Positions 22,201 through 38,325 of a DNA stretch of 38,343 nucleotides are shown in pieces. The notes below the pieces were generated by a model. It was not told the DNA's origin. It made no database searches and worked only from the letters and a program-made list of their open reading frames with translations. The stretch's first letter is position 1. The number at the start of each line of letters is the position of its first letter. A program made the translations under genes and the position numbers. Source of the DNA: a virus; the IMG/VR virus record IMGVR_UViG_3300032334_000371, positions 1 to 38,343 of that record; one strand, written 5' to 3'.

Positions 22201-22746
22201 ATGGGATTTAGCACACTAGAACAGTTAAAAAATGCGATTAAAACTGGAGCCAGATCAAATCTATTCACAGTGTCTCTTCCAATTATTACTGGAATTGATT
22301 CTGTTTTACAACAAGAGTTTCAATACTTGTGTAAAGCAGCATCACTTCCAGGATCGGCTATAGGTTCTATTGATATTCCTTTTATTGCTGGAAGACGTTA
22401 TAAAATTGCTGGAGACAGAACTTTTTCTGATTGGACAACAACAATTATGTCCGATCAGAATCAGAAAATTAGAAAAGCACTAGAAGATTTGCAAAGAGCG
22501 TATGCTCCAACTCATCTTGGAAATACACGTGCTTATGCGACAAAAACTGGTGCTAGAGATACAGATTTTCAAACTGTCACAGTAACACAATACGATTTGA
22601 GCGGAACTGCAGTATATAAATGTGAACTAAGAAATGCATGGCCTAGTGATATTTCGACAATTGATTTATCATATGATTCTACAGACACACTTGAAGAATT
22701 TACATGCACTTGGTCATACGATTATTTTGTTTATACTGAACTATAA
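22201..22746 (+). CDS. gp19: Tail tube protein gp19, first copy
   Basis: 181 residues, counterpart of T4 gp19 (163), which stacks as hexamers to form the tail tube. Shared family features are KTGARSNLFTVSLP, the CKAASLPGSAIGSIDIPF stretch, AGDRTFSDWTTTIMSDQ (T4: AGDRTFDDWTVTVMND) and the C-terminal LSYDSTDTLEEFTCTWSYDY. ACGGAGAACG is the ribosome binding site. It is followed by a second gp19-like gene. This copy is closer to T4 gp19 in length. Confidence 0.94.
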   Translation: MGFSTLEQLKNAIKTGARSNLFTVSLPIITGIDSVLQQEFQYLCKAASLPGSAIGSIDIPFIAGRRYKIAGDRTFSDWTTTIMSDQNQKIRKALEDLQRAYAPTHLGNTRAYATKTGARDTDFQTVTVTQYDLSGTAVYKCELRNAWPSDISTIDLSYDSTDTLEEFTCTWSYDYFVYTEL

Positions 22747-22773: not shown

Positions 22774-23394
22774 ATGGCAACAGAAAACTCTTTTTTTAAC
22801 ATCTCAAATTTTAGAGCAGCACTAGATGCTGGCGCAAAGCCAAATCTATTTTCAATAAGCATGGACTTACCTACGGGAGTTTCTGGTGATCATAATACTT
22901 TTAAGAATAATATGATTCTGTGTAAATCAGCAGCGATTCCAGCATTGACAGTTGGTATTATCGAAGTTCCGTATAGAGGAAGAAGAATTAAACTTCCGGG
23001 AGATAGAACTTATGGTGATTGGACAATCACAATCGTTAATGATAATAAACAATTTATGCGTAAAGCATTCGATAGGTGGTTAAAATACATCAATAATCCA
23101 GATGCTACTGCAAGTATTCGTACTACACAAAATATCGACTATAAAGTTTCTATTGATATTAGCCACCTTAAAATTAATGGTAAAGTAAGTCGTAGATATC
23201 AATTAGTTGATGCATTTCCTACAGACGTTTCAGCAATTGATTTGTCGTATGATACAACTGATTCTATTCAAGAGTTTACGGTGACATTCATGTATAGTCA
23301 CGTTCTATTTGGTGGTATTGCATCAGGTATTAATGCTGATGCGCCACCAATTACAGAAAATGATGTAATTAACATACCTGCCCAGTTTGCTTAA
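22774..23394 (+). CDS. gp19: Tail tube-like protein, second gp19 copy
   Basis: 206 residues, same fold family as its neighbour: DAGAKPNLFSISMDLP, CKSAAIPALTVGIIEVPY, PGDRTYGDWTITIVNDN and LSYDTTDSIQEFTVTFMYSH align throughout. It is well diverged from the first copy and has an extra C-terminal 20 residues (SGINADAPPITENDV onward). Starting 27 bases after the first copy, with AAGGAATAATC as ribosome binding site, and without its own promoter box, it is probably co-transcribed. It could be an alternating tube subunit, an end-of-tube protein or a relative of gp54, the tube initiator; which one cannot be decided from sequence. Confidence 0.9.
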   Translation: MATENSFFNISNFRAALDAGAKPNLFSISMDLPTGVSGDHNTFKNNMILCKSAAIPALTVGIIEVPYRGRRIKLPGDRTYGDWTITIVNDNKQFMRKAFDRWLKYINNPDATASIRTTQNIDYKVSIDISHLKINGKVSRRYQLVDAFPTDVSAIDLSYDTTDSIQEFTVTFMYSHVLFGGIASGINADAPPITENDVINIPAQFA

Positions 23395-23508: not shown

Positions 23509-25170
23509 ATGGCCATAAAACTTTTTGGATACAAGATCGGTAAAGATGATACCGATGTAGAAAAATTAAAATCTTTTGTTCCACCAAATGATGACGATGC
23601 ATCAGTATCTGTAGCTGGAGGTGGAGTATACGGTACATACATTGATTTAGAAGGTCAGATTAGATCTGATGCGGATTTAATTAAAAAATATCGCGAGATG
23701 GCACTTCAGCCAGAATGTGATGCTGCGATTGAAGACATTGTAAATGAATCTTTAGTTTTTGAAGATGGCGACTATCCAGTTCAAATTGTTTTAGATAAAT
23801 TAGAACAACCAGAATCAATCAAAAAGAAAATTCGTGATGAATATTATTTCATTATGAAACTTTTAGATTTTAATAATCAAGGATATGATATCTTTCGTAG
23901 ATGGTATGTTGATGGAAGACTTTACTATCACATGGTCATTGATGAGAAAAATCCAAGAACAGGATTAAAAGAAGTTCGATATATTGATCCCAGAAAGATT
24001 CGCAAAGTTAGAGAATTAAAGAGAGATAAGAATTCAATTAATGTGAATGCACTTCCTTCACAAAATTATGTCGAATATTTCATCTATTCGGACAAAGGTT
24101 TTGCTAGAGATGGATCTCAAGGAATCAAAATTGCTGCAGATGCTGTTTGTTATACAAATTCTGGTATCACAGATAAAGATGGCAAAGTAATTGTTTCGCA
24201 TTTACATAAAGCAATCAAGCCACTAAATCAATTAAGAATGCTTGAAGATGCTACGGTTATCTATAGAATTTCAAGAGCGCCGGAGCGTAGAATTTTTTAT
24301 ATTGATGTTGGTAATTTACCAAAAATGAAAGCTGAAGAATATCTTCGCGACATTATGCAAAGATATAAGAACAAGATTGTATATGATGCACAGACTGGAG
24401 AGATTCGCGACGATAGAAGATTTCAAACAATGCTTGAAGACTTCTGGCTTCCGAGAAGAGAGGGTGGTAGAGGCACTGAAATCACAACTCTTCAAGGTGG
24501 TCAAAATCTAGGAGAAATAGATGATGTTTTATATTTTCAAAAGAAAGTATTTAAATCATTAAATGTTCCGATCACAAGATTAGATTCTGAAAATGGATTC
24601 TCTTTGGGTAGAGCATCAGAAATCACAAGAGATGAATTAAAGTTTTCAAAATTTATCAATCGTTTGCGTTTGAGATTTTCACATTTGTTTGATAAGTTAT
24701 TAGAAACTCAATTGTTGCTAAAAGGTATCTGTACTCGTAAAGAGTGGCAACAAATGAAAGAAGAAATTTTTTATGACTATCAATCTGATTTGCATTTTGC
24801 AGAACTTAAAGGTGCTGAGATTCTAAAAGAAAGATTGGGATTGTTGGAAGCAATTGATCCTTTCGTCGGAAAGTATTTTTCTATTCGTCATATTCGTAAT
24901 AAAGTTTTACAACAAAGCGAAGAAGATATTAAAGAAATTGATAAAGAAATGGAAGAAGAAGCTGCACAGCAAGAAGAGAATGCTCCTCCTCAGGAAGAAA
25001 TGCCTCAAGAAGCACCACCAGCATTAGCATCCAATCAAGCTAATATTAAAGTAAAGGGTGAAGAGTATGAAAGAACTTTTGATGATTCTGATCAAAAAGA
25101 ATTATCAAAATCAATGACACGATTTTTTGATACTTTAGTCGAAGAGGCAAAGGGTGACAACAAAGAGTAA
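23509..25170 (+). CDS. gp20: Portal vertex protein gp20
   Basis: 553 residues, counterpart of T4 gp20 (524), the dodecameric ring at the unique head vertex that starts head assembly and passes DNA. Recognised from LRSDADLIKKY-like and REMALQPECDAAIEDIVNE near residues 60-85, RRWYVDGRLYYHMVIDEK, RYIDPRKIRKVRE, FYIDVGNLPKMKAEEYL and LDSENGFSLGRASEITRDE. The C-terminus is strongly acidic with a proline/glutamine-rich part (about 480-515), which differs from the conserved core. Ribosome binding site AGGAATAAAAAATG, right behind the terminator. The last 17 bases overlap the next gene. Confidence 0.96.
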   Translation: MAIKLFGYKIGKDDTDVEKLKSFVPPNDDDASVSVAGGGVYGTYIDLEGQIRSDADLIKKYREMALQPECDAAIEDIVNESLVFEDGDYPVQIVLDKLEQPESIKKKIRDEYYFIMKLLDFNNQGYDIFRRWYVDGRLYYHMVIDEKNPRTGLKEVRYIDPRKIRKVRELKRDKNSINVNALPSQNYVEYFIYSDKGFARDGSQGIKIAADAVCYTNSGITDKDGKVIVSHLHKAIKPLNQLRMLEDATVIYRISRAPERRIFYIDVGNLPKMKAEEYLRDIMQRYKNKIVYDAQTGEIRDDRRFQTMLEDFWLPRREGGRGTEITTLQGGQNLGEIDDVLYFQKKVFKSLNVPITRLDSENGFSLGRASEITRDELKFSKFINRLRLRFSHLFDKLLETQLLLKGICTRKEWQQMKEEIFYDYQSDLHFAELKGAEILKERLGLLEAIDPFVGKYFSIRHIRNKVLQQSEEDIKEIDKEMEEEAAQQEENAPPQEEMPQEAPPALASNQANIKVKGEEYERTFDDSDQKELSKSMTRFFDTLVEEAKGDNKE

Positions 25171-26899
25171 TTCGCAAAAAGACATAATTAGCGAAGCACT
25201 TTCTGTCGCAACATCAGTTGCTTATACTAAAAAAGAAATTGAGAAATTAAAAAAAGAACTTTTTAATTTCATTCAAGAACAAAGTAGCGAACAGAAAACT
25301 CTCGTTGAGTATGTCGAAGGTCCACAAGGAGAACGAGGTATCGTTGGTCCTCGTGGATTCATTGGTCAGACTGGTGCTCGGGGTCCAGTTGGTCCAAAGG
25401 GTGACACTGGCGAACAGGGCCCACAAGGTGAAAAAGGCGACACTGGTGAAGTTGGTCCTCAAGGATACATGGGCGCTACTGGTCCTAAAGGAGAACGTGG
25501 CGAGAAGGGCGACAAGGGCGACAAAGGTGATCGCGGCGAGCAAGGCATTCAAGGTGAGCAGGGTATTCAAGGTCCAGCTGGAGTAGACGGCAAAGATGGT
25601 TCTGCTGGAAAAGATGGTCGCGACGGAATCAATGGCTTACCTGGACGCGACGGCTTAGACGGTAGAGATGGTGTTGATGGTAAAGATGGCGCACAAGGAA
25701 AAGATGGAAAGCCTGGCGCACAAGGAGCAAAAGGCGAGAAGGGAGACATTGGACCAGCAGGCGCACCAGGATCTCAAGGAGAGCAAGGCCCGCAAGGTGA
25801 AAAGGGTGATCCCGGTCAAGATGCTGATGTAAGAGTAGTAGAAGAGCAAGTCAACAAATTCAAAGAGTTTCTACTACAGGATGTAAATCAATACAAAAAT
25901 AAAGTTAATGCAATCATCGGTCAAGGATTCGGAGGCGGATCTCATGGTGGCGGTGAAGTTAATCTACGCTACTTAGATGACGTTGATAGAGATAGCATTA
26001 CTGATGGTTATGTTTTATCATATGATGAAGCATCACAAAAATTTGTATTCATAGAGCAAACTGGTGGTGGTGGCGGCACTGTTGACAATATTGCAAGAAC
26101 AAGAGCAAACAATGCTTGGACTACAGCAAATCTAGCATATGCTATCGCAAACTCTGCTTGGGCTACAGCAAACATACAATCAGACTGGAATGTTGTTGAT
26201 GTAGCTAATGTTGCATATATTAGAAATAAACCAAATCTATCAATTTATGCAACAACTGCTACAACCAATGCTATATCAAATAATGTTTCTAGTGCATGGT
26301 ATACAGCAAATCTAGCATATACAGAAGCAAATACAGCACATTACATTGGACAAGCTGCTTATGATTATGCTAATACATTAATTGTTAGCACTAATCCAGG
26401 AGTTGATAATTTAGCACGTTCAATTGCTAATAGTTCATTTGCTACAGCAAATAGTAAGACATACACGTTTCATCAGAACACCGCACCAGCAACTGCTAAT
26501 ATAAATGATCTTTGGGTAAACACAGATACAGCATTCGTATATTACAACTTCGGAAATACTTCGTATCCTATTTGGGGTGAGTTTGGTCCAACAGGAACAT
26601 CTGTTGTAAATGCAAACAATGATTTAGATTTAAAAAATACAATACTAGTAACATCATCAACATACACGGCATCAAATACGGATTGGTATATTGGTGTTAA
26701 TCGAGTTAGTACCGTAACTATTACTCTGCCAACTGGAATAAATGGTCGAGAAATAGTTATTAAAGATGAAAGCGGAAATTGTGCAAATAATCCTATCGCT
26801 ATAGTTGGTAATATAGATAATGATGCTGGTGGCGCTATACTTTCAATAAACAATGGCAGTTTACATTTCATCTACAGAGCTGGTTGGAGAATAATCTAA
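25154..26899 (+). CDS. Collagen-like fibre protein
   Basis: 581 residues from a GTG start at 25154 inside the gp20 end, with GAGG at a proper distance; no ATG is available before the collagen part. Residues 1-50 include a helical, charged segment (KKEIEKLKKELFNFIQEQ). Residues 56-223 are 56 uninterrupted Gly-X-Y triplets, many with charged pairs (GEKGD, GKDG, GERGEKGDKGD) that stabilise proline-poor bacterial and phage collagens; a triple helix of about 50 nm is expected. A short coiled coil (about 228-256), a Gly-rich hinge and an NLRYLDDVDRD block follow. Ala-Asn repeats (ARTRANNAWTTANLAYAIAN, about 315-445) resemble the shaft of the fibre at 27475. The C-terminus forms a small beta tip (about 490-581, WYIGVNRVSTVTITLP). 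It is probably a trimeric virion fibre; whether head- or tail-bound is open. Confidence 0.85.
   Translation: MTTKSNSQKDIISEALSVATSVAYTKKEIEKLKKELFNFIQEQSSEQKTLVEYVEGPQGERGIVGPRGFIGQTGARGPVGPKGDTGEQGPQGEKGDTGEVGPQGYMGATGPKGERGEKGDKGDKGDRGEQGIQGEQGIQGPAGVDGKDGSAGKDGRDGINGLPGRDGLDGRDGVDGKDGAQGKDGKPGAQGAKGEKGDIGPAGAPGSQGEQGPQGEKGDPGQDADVRVVEEQVNKFKEFLLQDVNQYKNKVNAIIGQGFGGGSHGGGEVNLRYLDDVDRDSITDGYVLSYDEASQKFVFIEQTGGGGGTVDNIARTRANNAWTTANLAYAIANSAWATANIQSDWNVVDVANVAYIRNKPNLSIYATTATTNAISNNVSSAWYTANLAYTEANTAHYIGQAAYDYANTLIVSTNPGVDNLARSIANSSFATANSKTYTFHQNTAPATANINDLWVNTDTAFVYYNFGNTSYPIWGEFGPTGTSVVNANNDLDLKNTILVTSSTYTASNTDWYIGVNRVSTVTITLPTGINGREIVIKDESGNCANNPIAIVGNIDNDAGGAILSINNGSLHFIYRAGWRII
25319..25822 (+). 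repeat. Collagen-type Gly-X-Y coding repeat, 56 triplets
   Basis: Glycine occupies every third codon from residue 56 to 221 without a break. The DNA uses GGT, GGC, GGA and few GGG, so the repeat is not a simple tandem at base level. Confidence 0.95.
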
Positions 26900-26900
26900 T

Positions 26901-27458
26901 ATGACATATCTTTTCAATAATAACAATAATGTTGTGTATCCTGACCATAAACCTGGACTACATTATTCATTTAATAATCATGCAATTAATGTGCATAGAG
27001 GTTGGACCATCGAATCTGATACTATGGTTCCAATGATGAGCATTCGAACTAAAGCTAATATAAGCGCAAGTCAATATAGTGAATTAGAAGATTATGAACT
27101 TGGAAATAATAACGCAACCGCAAGTACGGTTGTTTACGAATGGTGGTTAGGACCATTAACATTTGGTGGAGCTGCTGTACCATCCTTTACTTCGGTTGGA
27201 ACAGGATTGGAATATAGATTCTATACAGATTGGTATAGTAGTCAAAATGGAACAACAGTAACAAGTTTTAGTGGATGTACACTAATTCATTCTGGGATTA
27301 TTATCGGTCGTACACAAGGTGGAGATAGCGTTCATACAGCATTGAGTGGAACAGGAACTTCCTCTCCCGGAACATTATTAACTCTTATGGTAAAACGAGT
27401 TGATAATTCCACAAAATTAGATTTGTGGGGAACATTTAATTTAATAGAATTTACTTAA
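26901..27458 (+). CDS. Hypothetical beta-rich structural protein
   Basis: 185 residues, starting one base after the collagen-like gene's stop. The sequence has an asparagine run near the N-terminus (FNNNNN), then mixed aromatic and polar strands (YEWWLGPLTFGG, YRFYTDWYSSQNG, LIHSGIIIGRTQGG, KLDLWGTFNLIEF) that suggest a beta sandwich. No family is recognised. Its place between two fibre genes in the same transcription unit makes a fibre-tip or fibre-associated virion protein likely. The start has no clear ribosome binding site and probably depends on coupling. Confidence 0.7.
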   Translation: MTYLFNNNNNVVYPDHKPGLHYSFNNHAINVHRGWTIESDTMVPMMSIRTKANISASQYSELEDYELGNNNATASTVVYEWWLGPLTFGGAAVPSFTSVGTGLEYRFYTDWYSSQNGTTVTSFSGCTLIHSGIIIGRTQGGDSVHTALSGTGTSSPGTLLTLMVKRVDNSTKLDLWGTFNLIEFT

Positions 27459-27474
27459 AAAATAATATAAATTC

Positions 27475-30400
27475 ATGGCGCTCAATTTCCCAATATCACC
27501 CACATTAAACCAGACTTATACAGTCGGCACAAAGACGTGGAAATGGAATGGATATGCTTGGGATCTTCAATTACAAGATTCTGCATCATCAAATAATTTA
27601 TCGTATGCTTGGTCTACTGCTAATGCAGCATATGCTCAAGCAAATACTGGAACATCATTAGCACAAGCAGCATACGATTATGCTAACACTTTAGTATTAT
27701 CTGGTGGAACATTAGATCAATTTGCTAGAAATACTGCAAATTCTGCTTGGTCTACAGCCAATGCTTCATACACTCAAGCAAATACAGTATCAACATTAGC
27801 TAATAATGCATCATCGATAGCTAACAATGCATTTTTAATCGCTAATGTAGCATATGCTCAAGCAAATACTGGAACATCACTAGCTAATTCAGCATTTTCT
27901 CAAGCCAATAATGCTTCGTCATTAGCACAAGCAGCATATAATTATGCTAACACAATTGTATCTGATACTCAGATTGATCCTCTCGCAAGAAGTAATGCAA
28001 ATAATGCTTGGTTCACAGCAAATAATGCATATACCCAAGCGAACAATGTATTTTTAGTCGCCAATTCCGCATTCATTCAAGCAAACACTAGTTCTAGTAT
28101 AGCAAATAATGCATATACCCAAGCGAATACTGCTACTACTAATGCCACCATAGCAAACAATCAAGCGGCAGCTGCATTCTCTACAGCAAATACAGCAAAT
28201 GCAAAAGCACAAGCCGCTTACGATTTTGCCAATACAATTGTAAGTGATACACAGATTGATCCATTTGCTAGAAGTCAAGCAAACAGCGCATTCAATCAAG
28301 CAAACACAGCAACATCTAATGCTTCTACTGCAAATGCTAAAGCACAAGCGGCATATGATTACGCAAATACAATTGTTGTTCCGAGTCTTTCTGGCTATGC
28401 AACCAATACTACAGTCAATCTAGTTTGGTCTACCGCTAATAGTGCATTCTCTACTGCTAACTCAGCATTTGCTAAAGCAAACACCGGCACCAATCAATTA
28501 ATCAACGGTGCTAGTACAGTCAGTCTTAGTGCAAATGGCAACTTAACATTAGCAGGACCAATTATTGGATTAGGAAATTCTAAACTAGATTTTACTACTT
28601 ACGGAGCCAACACCGCATATCTAACAACTACTAATGATGATTCTACTGCATTGTTTATGGGGTCGGCAACTGCTGAATTATATGCTTATACAAATGTTCA
28701 AATTAGGGCCAATACTGCAGGAATATCGAAAAACTGGACATTTGGCGAAGATGGCACATTAACATTCCCAGATAGCACAGTACAAACTACAGCCGCAACA
28801 AATATAGATGCATTTGCTAGAAGTCAAGCTAACTCAGCATTTGCACAAGCTAATACAGCGACTAACAATTCTTCTATCGCTAACAATATTGCATTAAGTG
28901 CTTTCAATCAAGCAAATACTGCTACAACTAATTCTGCTATTGCTAATAATCAAGCGGCATCTGCATTCTCTAAAGCTAATACTGCTACAACTCTAGCACA
29001 GTCTGCTTACGATTACGCAAATACAATTATTGTTCCAAGTCTGAGTGGTTACGCTGTTAATACAACAGTTAATTTAATTTGGTCCACAGCAAACAATGCA
29101 TTTTCAACTGCTAATGCTGCATACGTTCAAGCTAATACAGCTAATACATTAGCCAATACATTAGCAAATACAAAATTAAACACAAGCGGTGGTACAATTA
29201 CTGGTAATGTCACAATCACAGGTGACTTAACTATTTCTGGAAACTTAACATCATTTTCAGCAAATAATATTGTTATTGATGATTCTATAATTTATCTTGC
29301 TAATAATAATTCAGCTAACGTAATCGACATTGGCATTGTTGGAAACTATACTGATTCAAAATATCAACATACGGGTTTAGTGCGTGATGCATCTGATGGT
29401 AAATGGAAATTATTCAGTAATGTAATTTCAGAACCAACGACCACAATAGACTTCACAGATGCAATTTATGAAACATTAAAAGTTGGCGTAATTGAAGCAG
29501 CAAATGTAATAATTAATAGTACTGATATTATATCATATGCTCAAATAATTTTCAATACTGCAAACTCCGCATGGCTCACAGCAAATGCTGCTTATGTACA
29601 AGCGAATACTAGTTCTACAATAGCAAACAATGCTTGGTTCACAGCAAATGCTGCTTATGTACAAGCGAATACTAGTTCTACAATAGCAAACAATGCTTGG
29701 TTCACAGCAAATGCTGCTTATATACAAGCGAACAGTGCATTTTCAACTGCTAATGCTGCTTATAATCAAGCAAATACGGGAACAGCATTAGCACAATCAG
29801 CATACAATTATGCTAATACATTAAGTGGTGGCATAACAGATCAATTTGCTAGAAATACTGCAAACTCCGCATGGCTTACAGCAAATAATGCATATGCTCA
29901 AGCGAACACAGTAAATCTAGCTTATGCACAAGCCAATAGTGCATTTTCGACAGCAAATCTAGCTTATACACAAGCGAACACAGGAACATCAATAGCAAAC
30001 AATGCATTTTTTACAGCTAATGCCGCTTATCTACAAGCGAATAGTGCATTTTCAACTGCTAATGCTGCTTATAATCAAGCGAACACAGCAAATCTAGCTT
30101 ATAATCAAGCCAATAGTGCTTGGTTTACTGCAAATAATGCTTATGCACAAGCCAACAATGCTTGGTTTACTGCAAATAATGCATATGCTCAAGCGAACAC
30201 AGCAAATCTAGCTTATAATCAAGCGAATAGTGCATTTTCAACTTCTAATGCTGCTTATCTACAAGCGAATAGTGCATTTTCAACTTCTAATGCTTCTTAT
30301 CTACAAGCGAATAGTGCATTTTCGAGAGCAAATCTAGCTTATAATCAAGCCAATAGTGCATTTTCAACTGCTAATGCTGCTTATAATCAAGCGAACACAG

Positions 30401-30957
30401 CAAATCTAGCTTATAATCAAGCCAATAGTGCATTTTCAACTGCTAATGGTGCTTATACTCAAGCCAATAGTGCATTTTCGACAGCAAATCTAGCTTATAC
30501 TCAAGCCAATAGTGCATTTTCAACTGCTAATGGTGCTTATAATCAAGCGAATAGTGCATTTTCAACTGCTAATGGTGCTTATACAAGAGCTAATACTAGT
30601 TCTACTCTTTCTGGAACTGAGACACTAACAAACAAGCGGATCAACCCAAGGGTTTTGACAGCAACGACCGGGACATCAGTTACACCCAACACTGCTTTGT
30701 ATGATCAGTACAACTGGACTGCGCTTGCATCTACCTTAACTTTCAACGCTCCAACAGGCACACCCGTCAACGGTAATAAATTAATGTTTCGAATCACTCC
30801 TAATGGAACACCTGGTCTGTCTTGGAATGCTACCTACACACCGATTGGTGTAACGCTACCAACCACAACCGCCAACAATAAAACAATATACGTTGGTTGC
30901 ATATATAACGAAGACATTCCACGTTGGGATGTTATTGCCGTTTCGACACAAGCATGA
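27475..30957 (+). CDS. Long Ala-Asn repeat tail-fibre protein
   Basis: 1160 residues. N-terminus NFPISPTLNQTYTVGTKTWK then WNGYAWDLQ is the N-P-x-x-G-x-x-W-x-WNG-x-xW module that heads many cyanophage fibres. Most of the rest is a shaft of 7- and 14-residue units such as ANSAFSTANAAYNQ, in three blocks (about residues 40-340, 440-565, 690-1040). Small Ala and aromatic residues at regular heptad-like spacing suggest a long parallel coiled coil. Two globular inserts interrupt it: about 345-440 (LNGNLTLAG-like, FGEDGTLTFPDSTVQTTA) and about 575-690 (DLTISGNLTSFSANNIVID, GLVRDASDGKWKLF), the latter shared with the fibre at 13281. A C-terminal domain (about 1045-1160) begins SGTETLTNKRINPRV, common in phage fibres. 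The stop overlaps the cupin gene by ATGA. Confidence 0.85.
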   Translation: MALNFPISPTLNQTYTVGTKTWKWNGYAWDLQLQDSASSNNLSYAWSTANAAYAQANTGTSLAQAAYDYANTLVLSGGTLDQFARNTANSAWSTANASYTQANTVSTLANNASSIANNAFLIANVAYAQANTGTSLANSAFSQANNASSLAQAAYNYANTIVSDTQIDPLARSNANNAWFTANNAYTQANNVFLVANSAFIQANTSSSIANNAYTQANTATTNATIANNQAAAAFSTANTANAKAQAAYDFANTIVSDTQIDPFARSQANSAFNQANTATSNASTANAKAQAAYDYANTIVVPSLSGYATNTTVNLVWSTANSAFSTANSAFAKANTGTNQLINGASTVSLSANGNLTLAGPIIGLGNSKLDFTTYGANTAYLTTTNDDSTALFMGSATAELYAYTNVQIRANTAGISKNWTFGEDGTLTFPDSTVQTTAATNIDAFARSQANSAFAQANTATNNSSIANNIALSAFNQANTATTNSAIANNQAASAFSKANTATTLAQSAYDYANTIIVPSLSGYAVNTTVNLIWSTANNAFSTANAAYVQANTANTLANTLANTKLNTSGGTITGNVTITGDLTISGNLTSFSANNIVIDDSIIYLANNNSANVIDIGIVGNYTDSKYQHTGLVRDASDGKWKLFSNVISEPTTTIDFTDAIYETLKVGVIEAANVIINSTDIISYAQIIFNTANSAWLTANAAYVQANTSSTIANNAWFTANAAYVQANTSSTIANNAWFTANAAYIQANSAFSTANAAYNQANTGTALAQSAYNYANTLSGGITDQFARNTANSAWLTANNAYAQANTVNLAYAQANSAFSTANLAYTQANTGTSIANNAFFTANAAYLQANSAFSTANAAYNQANTANLAYNQANSAWFTANNAYAQANNAWFTANNAYAQANTANLAYNQANSAFSTSNAAYLQANSAFSTSNASYLQANSAFSRANLAYNQANSAFSTANAAYNQANTANLAYNQANSAFSTANGAYTQANSAFSTANLAYTQANSAFSTANGAYNQANSAFSTANGAYTRANTSSTLSGTETLTNKRINPRVLTATTGTSVTPNTALYDQYNWTALASTLTFNAPTGTPVNGNKLMFRITPNGTPGLSWNATYTPIGVTLPTTTANNKTIYVGCIYNEDIPRWDVIAVSTQA
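29578..29703 (+). repeat. Perfect 2 x 63-base tandem repeat in the fibre shaft
   Basis: Bases 29578-29640 and 29641-29703 are identical, each 21 codons of the Ala-Asn shaft. A third, partial copy follows directly with one early base change. Exact tandem identity indicates very recent expansion. Confidence 0.92.
30041..30590 (+). repeat. 42-base (14-codon) tandem repeats in the fibre shaft
   Basis: About a dozen units of 42 bases, core AATAGTGCATTTTCAACTGC followed by TAATGCTGCTTATAATCAAG, with few differences between units. They encode the ANSAFSTANAAYNQ unit. Near identity at DNA level, not only in protein, allows length change by slippage or recombination. Confidence 0.88.
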
Positions 30958-31235
30958 AGAACATTCCCCCCACTTATACTTTCCTTTATGACAAGGTAAG
31001 ATTTTCCGTGTATCACGCAAATTCTGGGGAGGGTCTTTCGCGTCATGAGCACACGTTTGCTCATCTAACAATGTGCGTTGCCGGTCAAGCTGCCATCCGT
31101 AAAGAAAACCTTTACAAAGAGATGGACAAGGACACCACGCCCGTGATCCTCAAAGAAAAAGAATGGCATGAGGTCGAAGCATTGGTTAATGGAACTATCT
31201 TTATTAACGTATTTCCATCAGGAGAACAAGAATGA
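30954..31235 (+). CDS. Small cupin-like protein
   Basis: 93 residues, starting at the ATG in the ATGA overlap with the fibre stop; an upstream in-frame ATG at 30924 lies inside the fibre gene and is less likely. It fits a single-domain cupin: motif 1 as G-x3-HEHTFAHLTMCVAG with His31, His33 and His37 as possible metal ligands (His37 in place of the usual Glu), and motif 2 with His72 in KEKEWHEVEALVNGTIFIN. Cupins bind metal and often sugars or small acids. Being wedged between a fibre and an adhesin, it may assist fibre folding or bind glycan, but this is speculation. Its base composition is richer in G+C than the phage backbone. Confidence 0.72.
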   Translation: MKNIPPTYTFLYDKVRFSVYHANSGEGLSRHEHTFAHLTMCVAGQAAIRKENLYKEMDKDTTPVILKEKEWHEVEALVNGTIFINVFPSGEQE

Positions 31236-31414
31236 CTGTATGTGTATTGTTTAACGACAAAGGCGAGTTTGTTAACACAATCATGGCCGAGCCAACAGAT
31301 TGGGTTGAGGAAGGCTGGCGTCTGGAAGAAGTGCCAGAGGGATACGTCTGGAACGGTAAGGCTATTGTTCTTGCAGGAACAATGCAAAACGAAGTAACGC
31401 CGGAAGTTATCTAA
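31232..31414 (+). CDS. Small hypothetical protein of the adhesin cassette
   Basis: 60 residues, overlapping the cupin-like gene by ATGA and the adhesin gene by one base (TAATG). It is acidic, with a beta-like start (MTVCVLFNDKGEFVNTIM) and a DWVEEGWRLEEVPEGYVWNG core. No family is recognised. Such very small genes directly before an adhesin tip are often assembly helpers. It shares the richer G+C content of its neighbours, suggesting that the three genes arrived together. Confidence 0.65.
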   Translation: MTVCVLFNDKGEFVNTIMAEPTDWVEEGWRLEEVPEGYVWNGKAIVLAGTMQNEVTPEVI

Positions 31415-33273
31415 TGCCCACCGTAACGATTGCAATTACATCTGGGACTCGTTGGAGGGTTCCGGTTGATTGCACATCTGCGACTATTCATTGTATTGGT
31501 GGTGGTGGTGGTGGCGGTGGAGCTTATTCAAAATCAACTGGGGTTTCGTTAACTCCTCTTTCATTAGCGTATGTAAATATTGGAGTAGATGGCGGAGACA
31601 CTTGGTTTAATAAAACCACCAACTCTGCACCAACATCAAATACAAACGGTGCTCTAGCGAAGGGAGGCGCAACTACCGCTGGATGTTGTGACCCTATTCT
31701 TCTTGGGGGTCAAGCAGTTGATGGTGTTGGTGATGTTGATGCTAAGTTTTCTGGCGGCAATGGAATAAGAAACATTACTTGCGGTGGAACCGTTTATGAA
31801 ATTGGTGGCGGCGCTGCGGGGCCTTCTGGGGCGGGTGGAAACGCGGGGGAAACAAAATATCTCGGAGGCGGAGGCGGAGGCGGAGGAGCCAACGGAGGAA
31901 CAAACGGAACAAACGGATCTTCTGTAACTGGAAATGGTGGAACAGGTGGAAATTCTGGAGTAGGAGGTGCTGGAGGGGCGGGAGGTCTTGGTTCAACAAG
32001 TTCAGGGACTGCGGGATCTCCGGGCACAAACGGTGGCGGTGGGGGTGGTGGCGGTGCTGATACAGTTGTTCCATTTGTTGCCGTAAACAATGGTGGCGGC
32101 GCAGGGTCCATGCAAGCAGTCTGGACAGACTACTTGGGAAATTCATATGGACCGGCTGGCGGATCAGGCGGAGAACCTTATTCAAACATTGATCTTGTTA
32201 GGACCATTACGCAAAGAACCAATTATGGCGGTGGTGGAGCTTTAAGCGGTGGTCAAGGTCTTATTATTATTACCTACACCCCGGTAGTGACAATTGGGAA
32301 CTCGTACACAGAAGTATTAAATGAGACTGGTTCAACTGAAATAAGCACACCAAGTCGTTGGAGAATTCCTTACGGAGTAGATAGTGTGAACGTTCACGCA
32401 ATTGGTAGTGGGTCGGCTGGACAAACGCCTACTGGACCTTGGGGTGGGGGAGGTGGCGGAGCTTACGCTAACTCCACAATTGACGTAAGCACGTTAAATA
32501 ACACAGGCGCGTACTATTTAAATTACTTTACTGGTAGTTTTTTTGGCGGATCTGACGCTTGGTTTAATAAATCAGCCAATACGGCGCCTAGTGCTAATGC
32601 CAATGGGGTTTTAGCTAAGGGAGCGGCAGTGGGTAGCAGAACTGGCGGAGCTTCCGCATCTTCTGTAGGTGTGACCGTTTATTCCGGAGGTACTGGGGGG
32701 TCTGGTGGCGGTACAACCATCGTAAAAAGCGGTGGCGGTGGAGGTGCTGCCGGTCCATCTGGGGCAGGTAAAAACGGCGGCAACGTATTTAGTGCAACTA
32801 ACGCATCTGGTTCATCTGGAGGCGGTGGTGGCGCAAACGGCGGGTCTTCAACTGCTGGCACTAACTCACCAGCCGCCGCGACTGCTGGTGCTGGCGGCGC
32901 AGGTAATGGGGGGACAGGAGGTGGTGCGGCTGCAACAGCAAGTTCTGCGGCTGGAAATGGAACTAATGGCGGCGGCGGGGGTGGAGGTAAAAACACCGTT
33001 GGGTTCCTAAACGGCGGTGACGGAAGCACACAAAACATCTGGACTGATTCGGGCACAAGCAGCCAGTATGGTCCCGGTGGCGGTGGTGGGGGAGCGGCAG
33101 CAACTAATTCAAGTAACCTTGGTAATGGTGGTGCAGGCGGAAATTGGGGTGGCGGCAGTTCAAATCGCACCCCAGTAGGTTACCCACTCATCGTCCTCCA
33201 GTACACAATTGTTAAGGCTGTACCTGTCGATGCGATTGTAACATCTGGAAATATGTTTATGATGTTCAATTAG
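31414..33273 (+). CDS. Glycine-rich adhesin-like protein with two tandem halves
   Basis: 619 residues in two homologous halves (about 1-300 and 305-619). Each opens with a small beta domain (SGTRWRVPVDCTSATIHCIG; STPSRWRIPYGVDSVNVHAIG), a GGGGGGGAY turn and a (T/A)WFNK(T/S)xNxAP strand, then a long glycine-rich part with runs such as GGGGGGGGANGG and GNGGTGGNSGVGGAGGAGG, and a conserved (I/N)WTDxxGxSxxYGPxGG closure. The glycine runs are like the polyglycine type II helix sandwich of the Salmonella phage S16 gp38 adhesin and the Gly-rich domains of other phage adhesins. The four serine/asparagine-rich loops between runs would form the variable receptor-contact tips. A receptor-binding tip of the preceding long fibre is the best guess. 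G+C content is well above that of the structural genes. Confidence 0.78.
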   Translation: MPTVTIAITSGTRWRVPVDCTSATIHCIGGGGGGGGAYSKSTGVSLTPLSLAYVNIGVDGGDTWFNKTTNSAPTSNTNGALAKGGATTAGCCDPILLGGQAVDGVGDVDAKFSGGNGIRNITCGGTVYEIGGGAAGPSGAGGNAGETKYLGGGGGGGGANGGTNGTNGSSVTGNGGTGGNSGVGGAGGAGGLGSTSSGTAGSPGTNGGGGGGGGADTVVPFVAVNNGGGAGSMQAVWTDYLGNSYGPAGGSGGEPYSNIDLVRTITQRTNYGGGGALSGGQGLIIITYTPVVTIGNSYTEVLNETGSTEISTPSRWRIPYGVDSVNVHAIGSGSAGQTPTGPWGGGGGGAYANSTIDVSTLNNTGAYYLNYFTGSFFGGSDAWFNKSANTAPSANANGVLAKGAAVGSRTGGASASSVGVTVYSGGTGGSGGGTTIVKSGGGGGAAGPSGAGKNGGNVFSATNASGSSGGGGGANGGSSTAGTNSPAAATAGAGGAGNGGTGGGAAATASSAAGNGTNGGGGGGGKNTVGFLNGGDGSTQNIWTDSGTSSQYGPGGGGGGAAATNSSNLGNGGAGGNWGGGSSNRTPVGYPLIVLQYTIVKAVPVDAIVTSGNMFMMFN

Positions 33274-33386: not shown

Positions 33387-33605
33387 ATGGAAAATATTCA
33401 ATCTGCAATTAATAGTGCAGCACAAGGAAAGCCTCACGAATTTAAGAGTTACATTGAAGACATTTTAGCTGATAAAGTTTCTAACTTTTTAGCAGTTAAA
33501 AAGATGGAATTAGCAGGTTCTATTTTCAATAATGAAGAACAACAAGAAGACCAACAACAAGAGTTTCAATTTAGTTCAGAAGGAAATGTAGATGAAGACC
33601 TTTAA
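33387..33605 (+). CDS. gp67: Prohead core protein, gp67-like
   Basis: 72 residues, resembling T4 gp67 (80) in size, place and build: an amphipathic helical first part (IQSAINSAAQGKPHEFKSYI, EDILADKVSNFLAVKKMELAG) with a short IFNNEE turn corresponding to the T4 NFLIEGEE region, followed by a glutamine- and acid-rich tail. T4 gp67 is a scaffold component needed for correct head shape and is cut to peptides by gp21. In T4 it follows the portal directly; here 8 kb of fibre genes lie between. The gene overlaps the next by 14 bases. Confidence 0.75.
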   Translation: MENIQSAINSAAQGKPHEFKSYIEDILADKVSNFLAVKKMELAGSIFNNEEQQEDQQQEFQFSSEGNVDEDL

Positions 33606-34779
33606 ATCTTTTATTCAATTAGATGAAGTTGAACGTGCAAAATACAAAGAAGGTATTGCAAACAAACTTTCTGGTGTTTCGTATCTAGCACAGACTAAAG
33701 ATCCAGGCGATTTGGAGCATGTTGGTCCAGAAGAAATTGGTCCGAAAGCAATTAAAACTGCATCTGGAAAGCGTCCAGCGGATCGTTTAGACAATAAACA
33801 GCCGTTCGGCGAAGCGATTGAAGATAATCTACATCCTGCAGGTGCAGCTTTATTGAAGCACATTAAACCTGAACATCACAATAAATATAAAGCCCACCTA
33901 ACAAAAGACACATTTAATGGAAGCTATAAAGATCGTCATGCAGTTCTTAAAGCTGCACATGATGCTGGTCATTTGAAAATGGATCTAAAGAAACAAAATG
34001 AAGAAGTTGAAGAACTCGACGAGATTTCTTCTAATCTAGCAGCTAAAGCAGCAGCGGTTGCAAGAGCTAAAAGACAAAATTCTCTTGAAAGAGGTAATGC
34101 TGTAGCAGCAAAGGCACATAACGATCAAGCAAATAGACTACAAGTCGGTAGCGATAATAGAGCTAATAAAGAAACAAATAAAGCATATTCAGATGCTCTT
34201 AAAAAATCGAGAAAAAGAATACAACAAAGTCCTTTATCTGATGTTAAAAAAAGAAGAATGGGTGAAGAAGTTGAAGAAGTTGGTGAAGCAGACAATTTAG
34301 CATTGCGTGGATTGGTCTCAGCCGATCCAAAAAATGCAGGCAGATTTTTGAGCACACAGAAAGGTAAAGAGAATAGAGCAAAGAAAAATGTTCCTGAATT
34401 GAAAGCTGATATTAAAAGACAGTTGGGTAAACACCCAAAACCAAATCTTCCAGAACAAAATGAATTAGATGAAGAAGATTTCACACCACAACAAACTAAG
34501 ATGGCTCACACAATTGGCAAAGAGTTTGCTAAGAAAAAAGTTGGTGACACTTACAAAGGCGGTCCATATGCAGTTGCATCAGCAATGGTAAAGAACAAGC
34601 CAGAAGCTGCTCAAAAAGCATACAACACAATCAAAGCAAAAATGAAAGAAGAAGCTGATGCTGATCTTCTATATAAAGTTTATAATGATTTAAATGAGCA
34701 AAATAGAATTGTATTCATGAATAGATTGGAAGTAGATGCGAACGATCTTTTACAATTCGCTAAACATATGGAAGACTAA
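33592..34779 (+). CDS. Modular prohead core or internal head protein with targeting-like N-terminus
   Basis: 395 residues. The N-terminus MKTFKSFIQLDE closely follows the capsid-targeting sequence MKTYQEFIAE of the T4 internal proteins, which is cut by gp21 after I/L-x-E. The remainder consists of basic blocks rich in Lys, Ala and Asn (about 80-135, 145-225, 235-285, 300-350) separated by short acidic stretches (NEEVEELDEIS, GEEVEEVGEAD, PEQNELDEED), each containing an L-D-E or V-G-E like site. It could thus be delivered with the core and be cut into several DNA-binding peptides. That is inference. It may occupy the role of gp68 or the IP proteins. It overlaps the gp67-like gene by 14 bases. 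Confidence 0.75.
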   Translation: MKTFKSFIQLDEVERAKYKEGIANKLSGVSYLAQTKDPGDLEHVGPEEIGPKAIKTASGKRPADRLDNKQPFGEAIEDNLHPAGAALLKHIKPEHHNKYKAHLTKDTFNGSYKDRHAVLKAAHDAGHLKMDLKKQNEEVEELDEISSNLAAKAAAVARAKRQNSLERGNAVAAKAHNDQANRLQVGSDNRANKETNKAYSDALKKSRKRIQQSPLSDVKKRRMGEEVEEVGEADNLALRGLVSADPKNAGRFLSTQKGKENRAKKNVPELKADIKRQLGKHPKPNLPEQNELDEEDFTPQQTKMAHTIGKEFAKKKVGDTYKGGPYAVASAMVKNKPEAAQKAYNTIKAKMKEEADADLLYKVYNDLNEQNRIVFMNRLEVDANDLLQFAKHMED

Positions 34780-35228: not shown

Positions 35229-35498
35229 ATGTTGGGCTTTAAAGACTTTTTATCTGAAGCTGGAATTGTTAAGGTCAATAGAATTCGACACGGCCAAGTT
35301 CAAAGAAGAGTTGCTGTGACAAGAATGGCTGGGTATAAAGTTATTAATGGGAAACTTGTGAAAATGTCTTCGCAAGAAAAAATGCATCGTAAACTTGGTC
35401 AAAGAGTTGGTGCAAGAAAAAGAGTTTCAAAAATTTCGACTATGTTAAGAAAAAGAGCAATGTCAATTAGAAAACGAAAATCTGCGGGGATCAAATGA
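35229..35498 (+). CDS. Small, highly basic head core protein (gp68 position)
   Basis: 89 residues, strongly basic (many Arg and Lys: KKRVSKI-like, ARKRVSKISTMLRKRAMS, IRKRKSAG). The N-terminus MLGFKDFLSEAG is like a T4 capsid-targeting sequence with a perfect gp21 type site L-S-E/A after residue 10. It sits directly before gp21, where T4 has gene 68, a prohead core protein. Sequence similarity to T4 gp68 itself cannot be shown here. The expected role is a scaffold component that stays in the head bound to DNA after cleavage. It overlaps gp21 by ATGA. Confidence 0.78.
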   Translation: MLGFKDFLSEAGIVKVNRIRHGQVQRRVAVTRMAGYKVINGKLVKMSSQEKMHRKLGQRVGARKRVSKISTMLRKRAMSIRKRKSAGIK

Positions 35499-36145
35499 TA
35501 CTAATTCAAGAAATTAACGAAGAGATTAAATTCTTTACCGAACAAGCAGAAGCTGGCGGTAAACAATATTATATCGAAGGTGTTTTCATGCAAGCTGAGC
35601 GCCAGAATAGAAACAATAGAATGTATCCACTTTCAATTCTACAAAAAGAAAGTAACAGATACAAAACAGAATACATCGATAAGAATCGTGCATATGGCGA
35701 GTTGGGTCACCCAGAAGGACCGACAATTAATTTAGAACGTGTTTCTCACATGATTAAAGAATTGCGTCAAGATGGAAATGATTTCATTGGTAAAGCAAAG
35801 ATCATGGACACACCTTATGGAAACATTGTAAAGAATCTACTAAGTGAAGGTGCTACTGTTGGAGTCTCAACTCGCGGTCTTGGTTCAATGGAAAAGAGAA
35901 AAGATGGAATCAATGTAGTCATGGACGATTTCTATCTTGCTACTGCTGCTGATATTGTTGCAGATCCATCTGCTCCTGATGCATACGTTAGAGCAGTTAT
36001 GGAAAACAAACAATGGATCTGGGATAATGGAATTTTAAAAGAAGTTGAAATTGCAAAACATCAAGAGATCATTAAAGAGTCTTCTAAGAAGAATTTAGAA
36101 GAAAATATGATTCAAGTTTTCAAAGATTTCATTTCAAAACTATAA
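35495..36145 (+). CDS. gp21: Prohead core protease gp21
   Basis: 216 residues, counterpart of T4 gp21 (212), the serine protease that matures the prohead by cutting after I/L-x-E. Family features are IEGVFMQAERQNRNNRMYP, AYGELGHPEGPTINLERVSH with the likely catalytic His72, GATVGVSTRGLGSM with the likely nucleophile Ser125, and DIVADPSAPDAYV with a further acidic residue. The C-terminus (after about 175) is helical and charged and probably removed by self-cleavage. The start overlaps the preceding gene by ATGA. Confidence 0.95.
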   Translation: MILIQEINEEIKFFTEQAEAGGKQYYIEGVFMQAERQNRNNRMYPLSILQKESNRYKTEYIDKNRAYGELGHPEGPTINLERVSHMIKELRQDGNDFIGKAKIMDTPYGNIVKNLLSEGATVGVSTRGLGSMEKRKDGINVVMDDFYLATAADIVADPSAPDAYVRAVMENKQWIWDNGILKEVEIAKHQEIIKESSKKNLEENMIQVFKDFISKL

Positions 36146-36197: not shown

Positions 36198-36941
36198 ATG
36201 ACAGAACAATTAAAAGACACGAATGCTGATATCGCTGCTATTTTTTCTGGCGAAGGGCTTTCTGAAGAATTCAAAAGCAATGCTAAATCAATCTTTGAAG
36301 CAGCAATTCTTGCAAAAGTTTCTGAAGAAACAGCAAGACTAGAAGAAGAATTCGAAGAAAAGCTAGTTGAAGAAGTTCAGTCTATCAACGAAAATCTAGT
36401 TACAAAAATTGATGAGTATCTAGAATACGTTGTTACAGAGTGGATGGAAGAAAATAAACTAGCTGTAGAATCTGGAATTAAAGCTGAATTAGCTGAAGAC
36501 TTTATGATTGGACTAAAGAATTTGTTTAATGAGCACTATGTTGACATTCCTGAAGACAAAGTTGAAATTGTTGAAGAATTTGCACAACAAGTTGAAATTT
36601 TGGAATCTGAATTAGACAAAGCTATTACAGATAATGTCTCTCTAACAGAAGAAATTAATGGCTACAAGAAAGAAAAGATTGTAGCTGATATTTCTGAAGG
36701 ACTGACTGAAGTTCAATTGGCGAAACTTAAATCATTGTCTGAGAACATTGAGTTCATTACAGAAAATGATTATAAGCAGAAACTTCTTTTGACGAAAAAG
36801 AAATATTTTGATGAAGTTGGCAGCGACGAAATTGTTACAAAATCGAATCAAATGGATGAAGAAACATCTACATTAGAAGAGTCATTCTCTCCTGTTATGA
36901 GTCACTATGTTCAGAATATTTCTAGAACACTCAAAAAATAA
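36198..36941 (+). CDS. gp22: Prohead scaffold (core) protein gp22
   Basis: 247 residues, counterpart of T4 gp22 (269), the main scaffold around which gp23 assembles and which gp21 degrades. The start ADIAAIFSGEGLSEEFKSNA with KSIFEAAILAKV is the conserved family signature. The rest is almost wholly helical and acidic with long coiled coils (ETARLEEEFEEKLVEEVQSI). Several L/I-x-E sites are present, as expected for a protein cut to small peptides. The last 25 residues (FSPVMSHYVQNISRTLKK) are conserved in the family and contact the shell. Confidence 0.94.
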   Translation: MTEQLKDTNADIAAIFSGEGLSEEFKSNAKSIFEAAILAKVSEETARLEEEFEEKLVEEVQSINENLVTKIDEYLEYVVTEWMEENKLAVESGIKAELAEDFMIGLKNLFNEHYVDIPEDKVEIVEEFAQQVEILESELDKAITDNVSLTEEINGYKKEKIVADISEGLTEVQLAKLKSLSENIEFITENDYKQKLLLTKKKYFDEVGSDEIVTKSNQMDEETSTLEESFSPVMSHYVQNISRTLKK

Positions 36942-36984: not shown

Positions 36985-38325
36985 ATGGCTATCGAAAATC
37001 TTATTAAAAAATGGTCACCAGTCTTAGATCATCCTGATCTAAGCACAATCAAAGACGCACACAAGCGTTCCGTTACAGCACAACTTCTTGAGAACCAAGA
37101 ACGTGCATGTCGCGAAGACGCAGCTGGTTCTGGTGGTTATCGTAACCAAACATCACTACTAACAGAAGCATCCCCAGCTAACGCAATGGGCGCATCTTCT
37201 TCTACAGCTGGTGATGGTAACATCGACATTTACGATCCAGTTCTAATTTCATTAGTTCGTCGCGCTGCTCCTAATCTAATTGCTTATGACATTTGCGGTG
37301 TTCAGCCAATGACTGGACCTACAGGTTTGATCTTCGCAATGCGTTCGCGTTACACAGGTCAGACACAAACAGAAGCATTGTTTAACGAAGCTAATACACA
37401 GTTCTCTTCTACAGGAACAGGTAACTTGGCTGTTCAAACTGGCTCTTCACCTGCTGATCTATCTGCTGGTACAGAGTACACACGTGGAACTGGTATGACT
37501 ACAGCAGCTGCTGAAGCACTTGGCGATGCAGCTGGTAATGCATTCCAAGAAATGGCTTTCTCTATTGAAAAGATTGCTGTAACAGCTCGTAGCCGTGCGC
37601 TAAAAGCTGAATACACAATGGAACTAGCACAAGACTTGAAAGCAGTTCATGGTCTTGACGCAGAGCAAGAGTTGGCGAACATTCTTTCTACAGAGATCCT
37701 AGCTGAGATCAATCGTGAAGTCGTTCGTACAATTAACTTGACTGCAACAGTCGGTGCACAAGAGAACGTTACAACAGCTGGTACTTTCAACCTTGACGTT
37801 GATTCGAACGGTCGTTGGTCGGTTGAGAAGTTTAAGGGCTTGATGTTCCAACTAGAGCGCGAAGCTAACGCAATTGCTAAAGCAACACGCCGTGGTAAAG
37901 GTAACATCCTAATTTGCTCTTCGGACGTTGCTTCTGCATTGCAAATGGCTGGTGTTCTTGACTATACACCTGCTCTAGCAAATAGCCTACAAGTTGATGA
38001 CACAGGCAACACATTTGCTGGTGTTCTAAATGGACGTTTCAAAGTTTATATCGATCCATACTTCGCAGCTACATCTGGTACACATTATGCAACAATCGGC
38101 TACAAAGGCACATCAGCTTTTGATGCTGGCTTGTTCTATTGCCCATACGTTCCTTTACAAATGGTTCGTGCAGTTGGCCAGGATACATTCCAGCCAAAGA
38201 TCGGCTTCAAGACACGTTACGGAATGGTTGCAAACCCATTCGCAACATCTGCAGCTGACGGAACATTGACATTTGCTAATAAGAATATCTACTACCGTAG
38301 AATTTCTATTACAAATCTAATGTAA
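36985..38325 (+). CDS. gp23: Major capsid protein gp23
   Basis: 446 residues, counterpart of T4 gp23 (521), an HK97-fold shell protein. Clear signatures are VQPMTGPTGLIFAMRSRY, EMAFSIEKIAVTARSRALKA, YTMELAQDLKAVHGLDAE, LANILSTEILAEINREVVR and KGNILICSSDVASAL. The N-terminal 61 residues are the probable propiece: the LLTE/ASPANAMG site after Glu61 fits the gp21 rule and the T4 site after residue 65. The gene is complete; its stop is 18 bases from the window end. It uses more C-ending codons and is richer in G+C than its neighbours, usual for a very highly expressed gene. Confidence 0.97.
   Translation: MAIENLIKKWSPVLDHPDLSTIKDAHKRSVTAQLLENQERACREDAAGSGGYRNQTSLLTEASPANAMGASSSTAGDGNIDIYDPVLISLVRRAAPNLIAYDICGVQPMTGPTGLIFAMRSRYTGQTQTEALFNEANTQFSSTGTGNLAVQTGSSPADLSAGTEYTRGTGMTTAAAEALGDAAGNAFQEMAFSIEKIAVTARSRALKAEYTMELAQDLKAVHGLDAEQELANILSTEILAEINREVVRTINLTATVGAQENVTTAGTFNLDVDSNGRWSVEKFKGLMFQLEREANAIAKATRRGKGNILICSSDVASALQMAGVLDYTPALANSLQVDDTGNTFAGVLNGRFKVYIDPYFAATSGTHYATIGYKGTSAFDAGLFYCPYVPLQMVRAVGQDTFQPKIGFKTRYGMVANPFATSAADGTLTFANKNIYYRRISITNLM

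Follow-up and report, generated by a model that had tools for sequence, protein, structure and literature searches.

Between the gp67-like gene and the gp21 protease gene of a T4-like phage of bacteria from water lies an open reading frame of 395 aa, and we asked whether it encodes, as the initial annotation of this DNA proposed, an internal head protein that gp21 would cut into several basic peptides. The stretch analysed, here called the window, is a virus record of 38,343 bases; its gp23 is 65–69% identical to those of the Pelagibacter phages Mosig and HTVC008M and of the Methylophilales Melnitz phages. The genes at its right end follow the order portal gp20, tail-fibre-like genes, gp67-like gene, 395-aa ORF, 147-aa ORF, gp68-like basic ORF, gp21, gp22 and gp23:

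23509-25170: portal gp20
33387-33605, plus strand: gp67-like prohead core gene, weak match to PHROG 1064 'prohead' (E 0.002, residues 6-61), same position in relatives
33592-34779, plus strand: putative modular head-targeted precursor protein, 395 aa, pI 9.3, ATG start, in frame
35229-35498, plus strand: small basic protein of 89 aa in gp68-like position, weak match to PHROG 3503 head scaffolding (E 0.033)
35495-36145, plus strand: gp21-type prohead protease (peptidase S77; PF03420, E 2.8e-35; PHROG 207, E 4.6e-79)
36198-36941, plus strand: gp22 scaffold (PF25623, E 1.7e-65)
36985-38325, plus strand: gp23 major capsid protein (PF07068, E 3e-145)

The 395-aa reading frame is real and in frame as annotated, and the gp67-like gene overlaps its start by 14 bases. 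The 89-aa protein has a start of its own resembling a capsid targeting sequence (CTS), MLGFKDFLSE/A, and a start of the type MLxFK[DE]FI is conserved in relatives. In the window gp23 a likely maturation site is LLTE61/A; LL[STG]E/A is found in gp23 of most neighbours, and T4 gp23 has FLTE/A for comparison. About 8 kb of tail-fibre-like genes (25154-33273), among them a collagen-like ORF of 581 aa and one of 1160 aa composed of SAFSTANAAYNQANT repeats, lie between the portal and the gp67-like gene; in Mosig, Melnitz and HTVC008M the small core genes directly follow the portal. Two adjoining tail-tube genes (22201-22746 and 22774-23394) both match PHROG 45.

All five motifs listed by the initial annotation, LDE12, FGE74/A, LDE144, VGE232/A and LDE294, are found at the residues given. 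The anatomy of the protein is as follows:

33592-33627, plus strand: capsid-targeting-like peptide MKTFKSFIQLDE, residues 1-12, with site LDE12
33628-33813, plus strand: block A, residues 13-74, up to FGE74, disorder predicted; relatives show a breakpoint at 74
33814-34023, plus strand: block B, residues 75-144, ends LDE144, predicted compact helical domain, also in long phage proteins (loci L025-L037)
34024-34287, plus strand: block C, residues 145-232, up to VGE232, strongly basic and predicted to form a single long helix, missing from L003 and L004 as a unit of exactly 88 aa
34288-34473, plus strand: block D, residues 233-294, basic, ends LDE294, the exact 62-aa difference between L004 and L005
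34474-34635, plus strand: block E, residues 295 to about 348, domain TKMAHTIGKEF.., in many slot proteins with or without B and D
34636-34776, plus strand: block F, residues 349-395, acidic and helical C-terminus, retained by most slot proteins

The description of these blocks as lysine-rich and separated by acidic linkers holds for blocks C, D and E, with core net charges of +11, +7 and +4, and for the linkers at 144, 232 and 294, with net charges of -4, -3 and -3 over the last 12 residues, whereas blocks A and B, at +2 each, are no more than mildly basic and the stretch before residue 74 has a net charge of -1 only. Likewise, the proposed peptides would be basic only in part, since the C-terminal block is acidic with a pI of 4.6.

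The likeness of the start to the T4 capsid targeting sequence was borne out: an aromatic residue at position 4 and a phenylalanine at position 7 (F4, F7) are followed by L10-D-E12, an L/I-x-E soon after the CTS, and the first residues MKTFKSF compare with MKTFKEF in T4 ipI. In T4 IPIII residues 4 and 7 direct targeting and residues 8 and 10 processing, and gp21 cuts after L/I-X-E (PMC9026906); the phage encodes its own gp21 protease of the S77 type. Of the slot proteins, 58 distinct ones have a CTS-like start; a hydrophobic-x-E at residues 8–18 is present in 55 of them, compared with 19% in composition shuffles, and in 3 the start site is not hydrophobic at P3. Where the sequence reaches far enough upstream of gp21, at 76 loci, 69 have a CTS-starting ORF in the slot before it; the count comes from the closest gp21 relatives and is no census, and some of its ORFs are the gp68-like one and not the slot protein. 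By analogy, and from published proteomics of the virions of relatives, the protein is likely to be targeted to the head and to lose its start peptide to gp21.

Exchange of whole blocks among relatives, a comparison suggested by the annotation, found strong support in exact block losses and in breakpoints at the sites. One scan gave 43 relatives in viral contigs and a second gave gp21 neighbours; pairs of gp21 and slot protein were left out when the latter was a gp68-like ORF of 89–96 aa or an internal start at a contig cut (L002). Slot proteins vary in length between about 77 and 395 aa and show more than 20 block arrangements. In L003 and L004, with a gp21 98–99% identical to that of the window, exactly the 88 aa of block C (145-232) are missing, L005 and L006 lack about 150 aa corresponding to blocks C and D, and L004 differs from L005 by the 62 aa of block D. 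The lengths 88, 62 and 150 are the spacings between the sites at 144, 232 and 294. Further changes are a second copy of a B-type block in L041 relative to L043 and L044, and another block inserted between the FGE and MSE joints in the comparison of L064 with L073. The B-type copies are arranged in tandem in the L041 slot protein (L041:5647-6297), L043 and L044 having one each.

Sharp homology breakpoints lie at most one residue from the glutamate of [ILVFM]xE in 112 of 444 cases, compared with 32.5 ± 5.2 at random (maximum 48, 300 draws), and with the strict [IL]xE in 61 compared with 17.3 ± 4.2; the 46 non-redundant proteins form related, non-independent pairs, so that p values are not to be taken literally, and trimmed ends were used, raw BLAST ends being noisier. 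Where breakpoints end in glutamate, P3 is hydrophobic in 22 of 36, compared with 27% of all glutamates. The sites are thus module borders, and whole blocks are gained or lost between near-identical phages. This turnover at the couplings suggests a swappable peptide cargo in the head.

The AlphaFold model of the whole protein is of low confidence (pLDDT 67.5, pTM 0.26). Disorder is predicted for residues 9-61, 65-77, 219-263 and 279-290, with pLDDT below 50 for the first two. Block B is predicted as a compact helical domain (folded alone, pLDDT 81.8 and pTM 0.59), block C as one long helix, and E and F as helical. Sites 74 and 232 fall within low-confidence stretches and site 294 beside one; LDE144 lies inside a long predicted helix of low to medium confidence (133-211), which is a point against cutting there.

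Family searches with the 395-aa protein gave no PHROG, Pfam or NCBIfam family at a usable E-value, no profile match to gp22, gp67 or gp68 and no significant PDB sequence match, and fold searches of PDB and viral structures with the whole model and with block B returned nothing significant; in these searches no block resembled T4 IPI or any known family or fold. The bodies of internal proteins are unconserved even among T-even phages, and a lacking family match to them is therefore not decisive. A tblastn search of the whole protein against 50,697 phage records had no match even at E 10, so the slot protein is known here from metagenomic contigs only. EF-hand-like loops such as LDKNHNGELDKQDF are repeated in several modular proteins (long proteins of L025-L031), and the best, weak viral fold match of the window protein is a phage protein named 'EF-hand domain-containing'.

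Block B also occurs in proteins of 269–1133 aa. In L029 and L032 the protein that carries it is the slot gene itself, located after the gp67-like gene and close before gp21; in L025-L028, L031 and L033-L037 it is part of long proteins outside the slot, and block D recurs in L026 beside other blocks. At the loci examined among these (L025-L028, L031 and L036) several neighbouring genes start MKSF..F..E or a variant of it and a cytidylyltransferase gene is nearby; in L033-L037 some metagenomic versions of the cytidylyltransferase are fused to block B. Proteins of 1131–1133 aa in L034 (1518-4913) and L035-L037 start MITFKEAKD; a cytidylyltransferase domain comes first, then numerous exchangeable blocks, of which block B is one. 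The distal clusters in L025 (1907-9803), L026, L027, L028 and L036 hold several ORFs with the CTS-like start MKSF..F..E, among them DUF6267 (PF19782), a 546-aa cytidylyltransferase-like protein, DUF6321 and a 63-aa protein; from their sequences these clusters look like a battery of packaged proteins. Three long modular proteins (L028:4801-6930, L031:4294-6756 and L033:236-2245) have a CTS-like motif (MKSFKDFITEIKLADLP and variants) close to the C-terminus, as though they had acquired a small CTS-tagged gene by fusion. A ferritin/Dps-like ORF (L028:4346-4801; PF00210, E 2.9e-19 in L028) stands beside the cytidylyltransferase and modular genes, and similar ORFs are present in L031 and L036.

Cultured cyanophages have comparable clusters. 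The S-CREM2 cytidylyltransferase ORF154, ORF136 and the modular ORFs 137 and 160 were detected by mass spectrometry in purified virions (PMC10665884), whose authors cautioned that such proteins may be highly expressed and not separated from virions. ORF154 starts MKNFSSFLTE/ADEK and ORF136 MQTFSMFFSE/DAG; ORFs 137 and 160 share blocks with S-SM2 T4-GC119 and DSL-LC02. The T4-GC190 cytidylyltransferase was detected in S-SM1 virions (PMC3037559), and its S-SM2 orthologue starts MKSFFQFLSE/A. Given the detections in S-CREM2 and S-SM1, virion packaging of this class of CTS-bearing or modular proteins is likely.

We consider it moderately probable that the 395-aa protein is a prohead-core cargo precursor which loses its start peptide, is cut at inner sites and leaves its modules with the DNA. 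The N-terminal peptide would direct the protein into the head during assembly, in the manner of a T4 capsid targeting sequence, and the gp21-type protease, encoded 716 bases downstream, would remove it and would cut some or all hydrophobic-x-E sites at the module borders. Small, mostly basic modules would be released and remain with the DNA. The ends, that is targeting peptide plus block A and the acidic block F, are largely fixed, and inner modules are gained, lost, duplicated and shared with other genes via recombination in the linkers, leaving different phages with different module sets. The anatomy, the synteny, the block exchange and its match with the hydrophobic-x-E sites are established by the sequences; cutting at the inner sites, retention in the mature head, delivery to the host and any function there, such as the action against host defences suggested by the initial annotation, are what we infer from this arrangement.

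A serious though doubtful alternative is that of a disposable prohead-core scaffold, which would enter via its start peptide, set head size or core packing and leave the head as gp21 peptides like T4 gp22, gp67 and gp68, with a block number that varies as length would matter little. Its location between the gp67-like gene and gp21/gp22 would suit such a role, as would the extended, helical or disordered prediction and the conserved acidic C-terminus. Moreover, the T4 precedent cuts both ways: internal proteins are injected, with IPI* set against GmrSD (PMC3012670), whereas the core proteins that are cut into multiple fragments, such as gp22 and gp67, mostly exit the head (PMC9026906), so that being cut is no sign of staying in the head. 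The extreme turnover of blocks among phages whose gp21 is 98–99% identical, however, fits cargo better, as does the presence of the blocks in distant long proteins, some of them headed by an enzyme, and modular relatives were detected in mature S-CREM2 virions.

It also appears unlikely that the linkers are recombination joints only. Here the protein would be head-targeted, lose its start peptide and stay uncut, near-identical DNA in flexible acidic spacers would shuffle the blocks, and the hydrophobic-x-E motifs would be incidental. The DNA at the linkers provides such a joint in two copies:

33999-34014, plus strand: linker repeat copy 1, TGAAGAAGTTGAAGAA, left of block C, 16-nt direct repeat
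34263-34278, plus strand: linker repeat copy 2, right end of block C, 16-nt direct repeat

This perfect repeat ends blocks B and C, its two copies (0 expected) being the only ones in the window. A crossover between them, collapsing the repeat, would give the L003/L004 arrangement, and the linker can therefore act as a seam in both DNA and protein. Exchange also takes place at the FGE and MSE joints without the 16-nt repeat, which is hence not the sole route. L002 keeps block C with another linker (GELGEEVSE, not GEEVEEVGE) and yet retains V-x-E. Linker DNA frozen in sequence was considered and rejected: the EEVE codons GAAGAAGTTGAA, used in 15 of 27, are only mildly above the roughly 0.3 expected from codon use, so codon use in the linkers is near the prediction from codon bias.

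The number of sites in the protein is at chance, as the joints-only reading would have it: [IL]xE occurs 5 times compared with 3.8 in shuffles (p 0.33) and [ILVF]xE 10 times compared with 6.2, which is not significant (p 0.066). Since L/I-x-E is not enriched over shuffles, we dropped site count as evidence. Given the glutamate positions, [ILVF]xE is over-represented in the linkers (8 of 10, hypergeometric p 0.009); for L/I-xE alone the excess is not significant (4 of 5, p 0.10). The sites had been annotated as gp21-type, and three of the five fit the published L/I-X-E (PMC9026906). Among the inner sites this applies to LDE144 and LDE294 but not to FGE74 and VGE232, two of four that thus suit incidental motifs, and P3 of site 74 was never L or I among the relatives seen. 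Against an incidental motif stands the pattern in 27 distinct EEVE linkers, with I, L or V at P3 in 20 and E at P1 in 19, while P2 and P4 vary; this is expected for a protease site and not merely for an acidic spacer. Judged from the sequence, cutting is plausible at LDE144 and LDE294 and plausible, less surely, at FGE74 and VGE232, and would give the pieces A or A+B, C, D and E+F. Seam cleavage was not reported in the literature searched.

That the protein is a cytoplasmic accessory unrelated to the head, placed in the head operon by chance, is highly improbable: it would agree with the lack of a family or fold match, but position and start motif are conserved and virion proteomics detected relatives that share the start motif.

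The closest known systems include the T4 internal proteins IPI, IPII and IPIII, which share the start peptide with an aromatic residue at position 4 and F7, the following hydrophobic-x-E cut site and a mostly basic content, and in which highly diverse bodies are joined to a CTS that alone is conserved (PMC3012670). These CTS-targeted, gp21-processed and injected proteins are, however, single-module, with one maturation cut, and are located elsewhere in the genome, whereas the window protein is a multi-module precursor in the gp67-gp21 slot without detected sequence relation to them. The T4 core proteins gp22, gp67 and gp68 have the same gene neighbourhood, gp22 and gp67 being cut at several sites by gp21, but there is no family match and block exchange was not reported for them in the literature searched. 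In the heads of giant phages, a gp21-like protease likewise cuts SPN3US gp53 and gp54 and the inner body proteins of phiKZ at several x-x-E sites, and some of these proteins are ejection proteins (PMC10052503, PMC9026906). There the protease breaks down a long propeptide at the N-terminus and leaves a single mature body, and no exchangeable cassettes were described.

The cyanophage cytidylyltransferase T4-GC190 and its modular neighbours have a CTS-like start with FLTE/A or FLSE/A and are present in virions; T4-GC190 differs in its N-terminal enzyme domain and in its location in a distal gene cluster rather than in the gp67-gp21 slot. Polyvalent proteins of phages and conjugative elements are mosaic multi-domain proteins thought to enter the host with DNA (PMC5512222). 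They are defined by known enzymatic conflict domains, at least two of which are required, and none was detected in the window protein: neither this protein nor the modular relatives scanned contained a Pfam domain at gathering score.

The start of the protein probably works like that of a T4 internal protein, and the new part is the proposed multi-module, cassette-exchanging precursor in the slot. The literature searched, which took in few subscription papers, contains no account of a precursor of this kind occupying the gp67-gp21 slot. A wider possibility, which we put forward tentatively, is that T4-like phages of bacteria living in water carry a protease-bounded payload array between fixed ends. 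Its modules would be exchanged at the linkers, both inside the slot gene and between it and a distal CTS-tagged cluster that includes a packaged nucleotidyltransferase, the head protease would unpack them, and a phage-specific set of small proteins would be delivered to the host at infection. The known T4 internal proteins are each a single protein that is injected; they differ widely and have only the targeting peptide in common. If the proposal is true, cut sites doubling as seams for payload exchange would explain how this cargo diversifies, and a CTS start together with hydrophobic-x-E seams would provide a sequence rule for packaged effectors among unannotated phage proteins.
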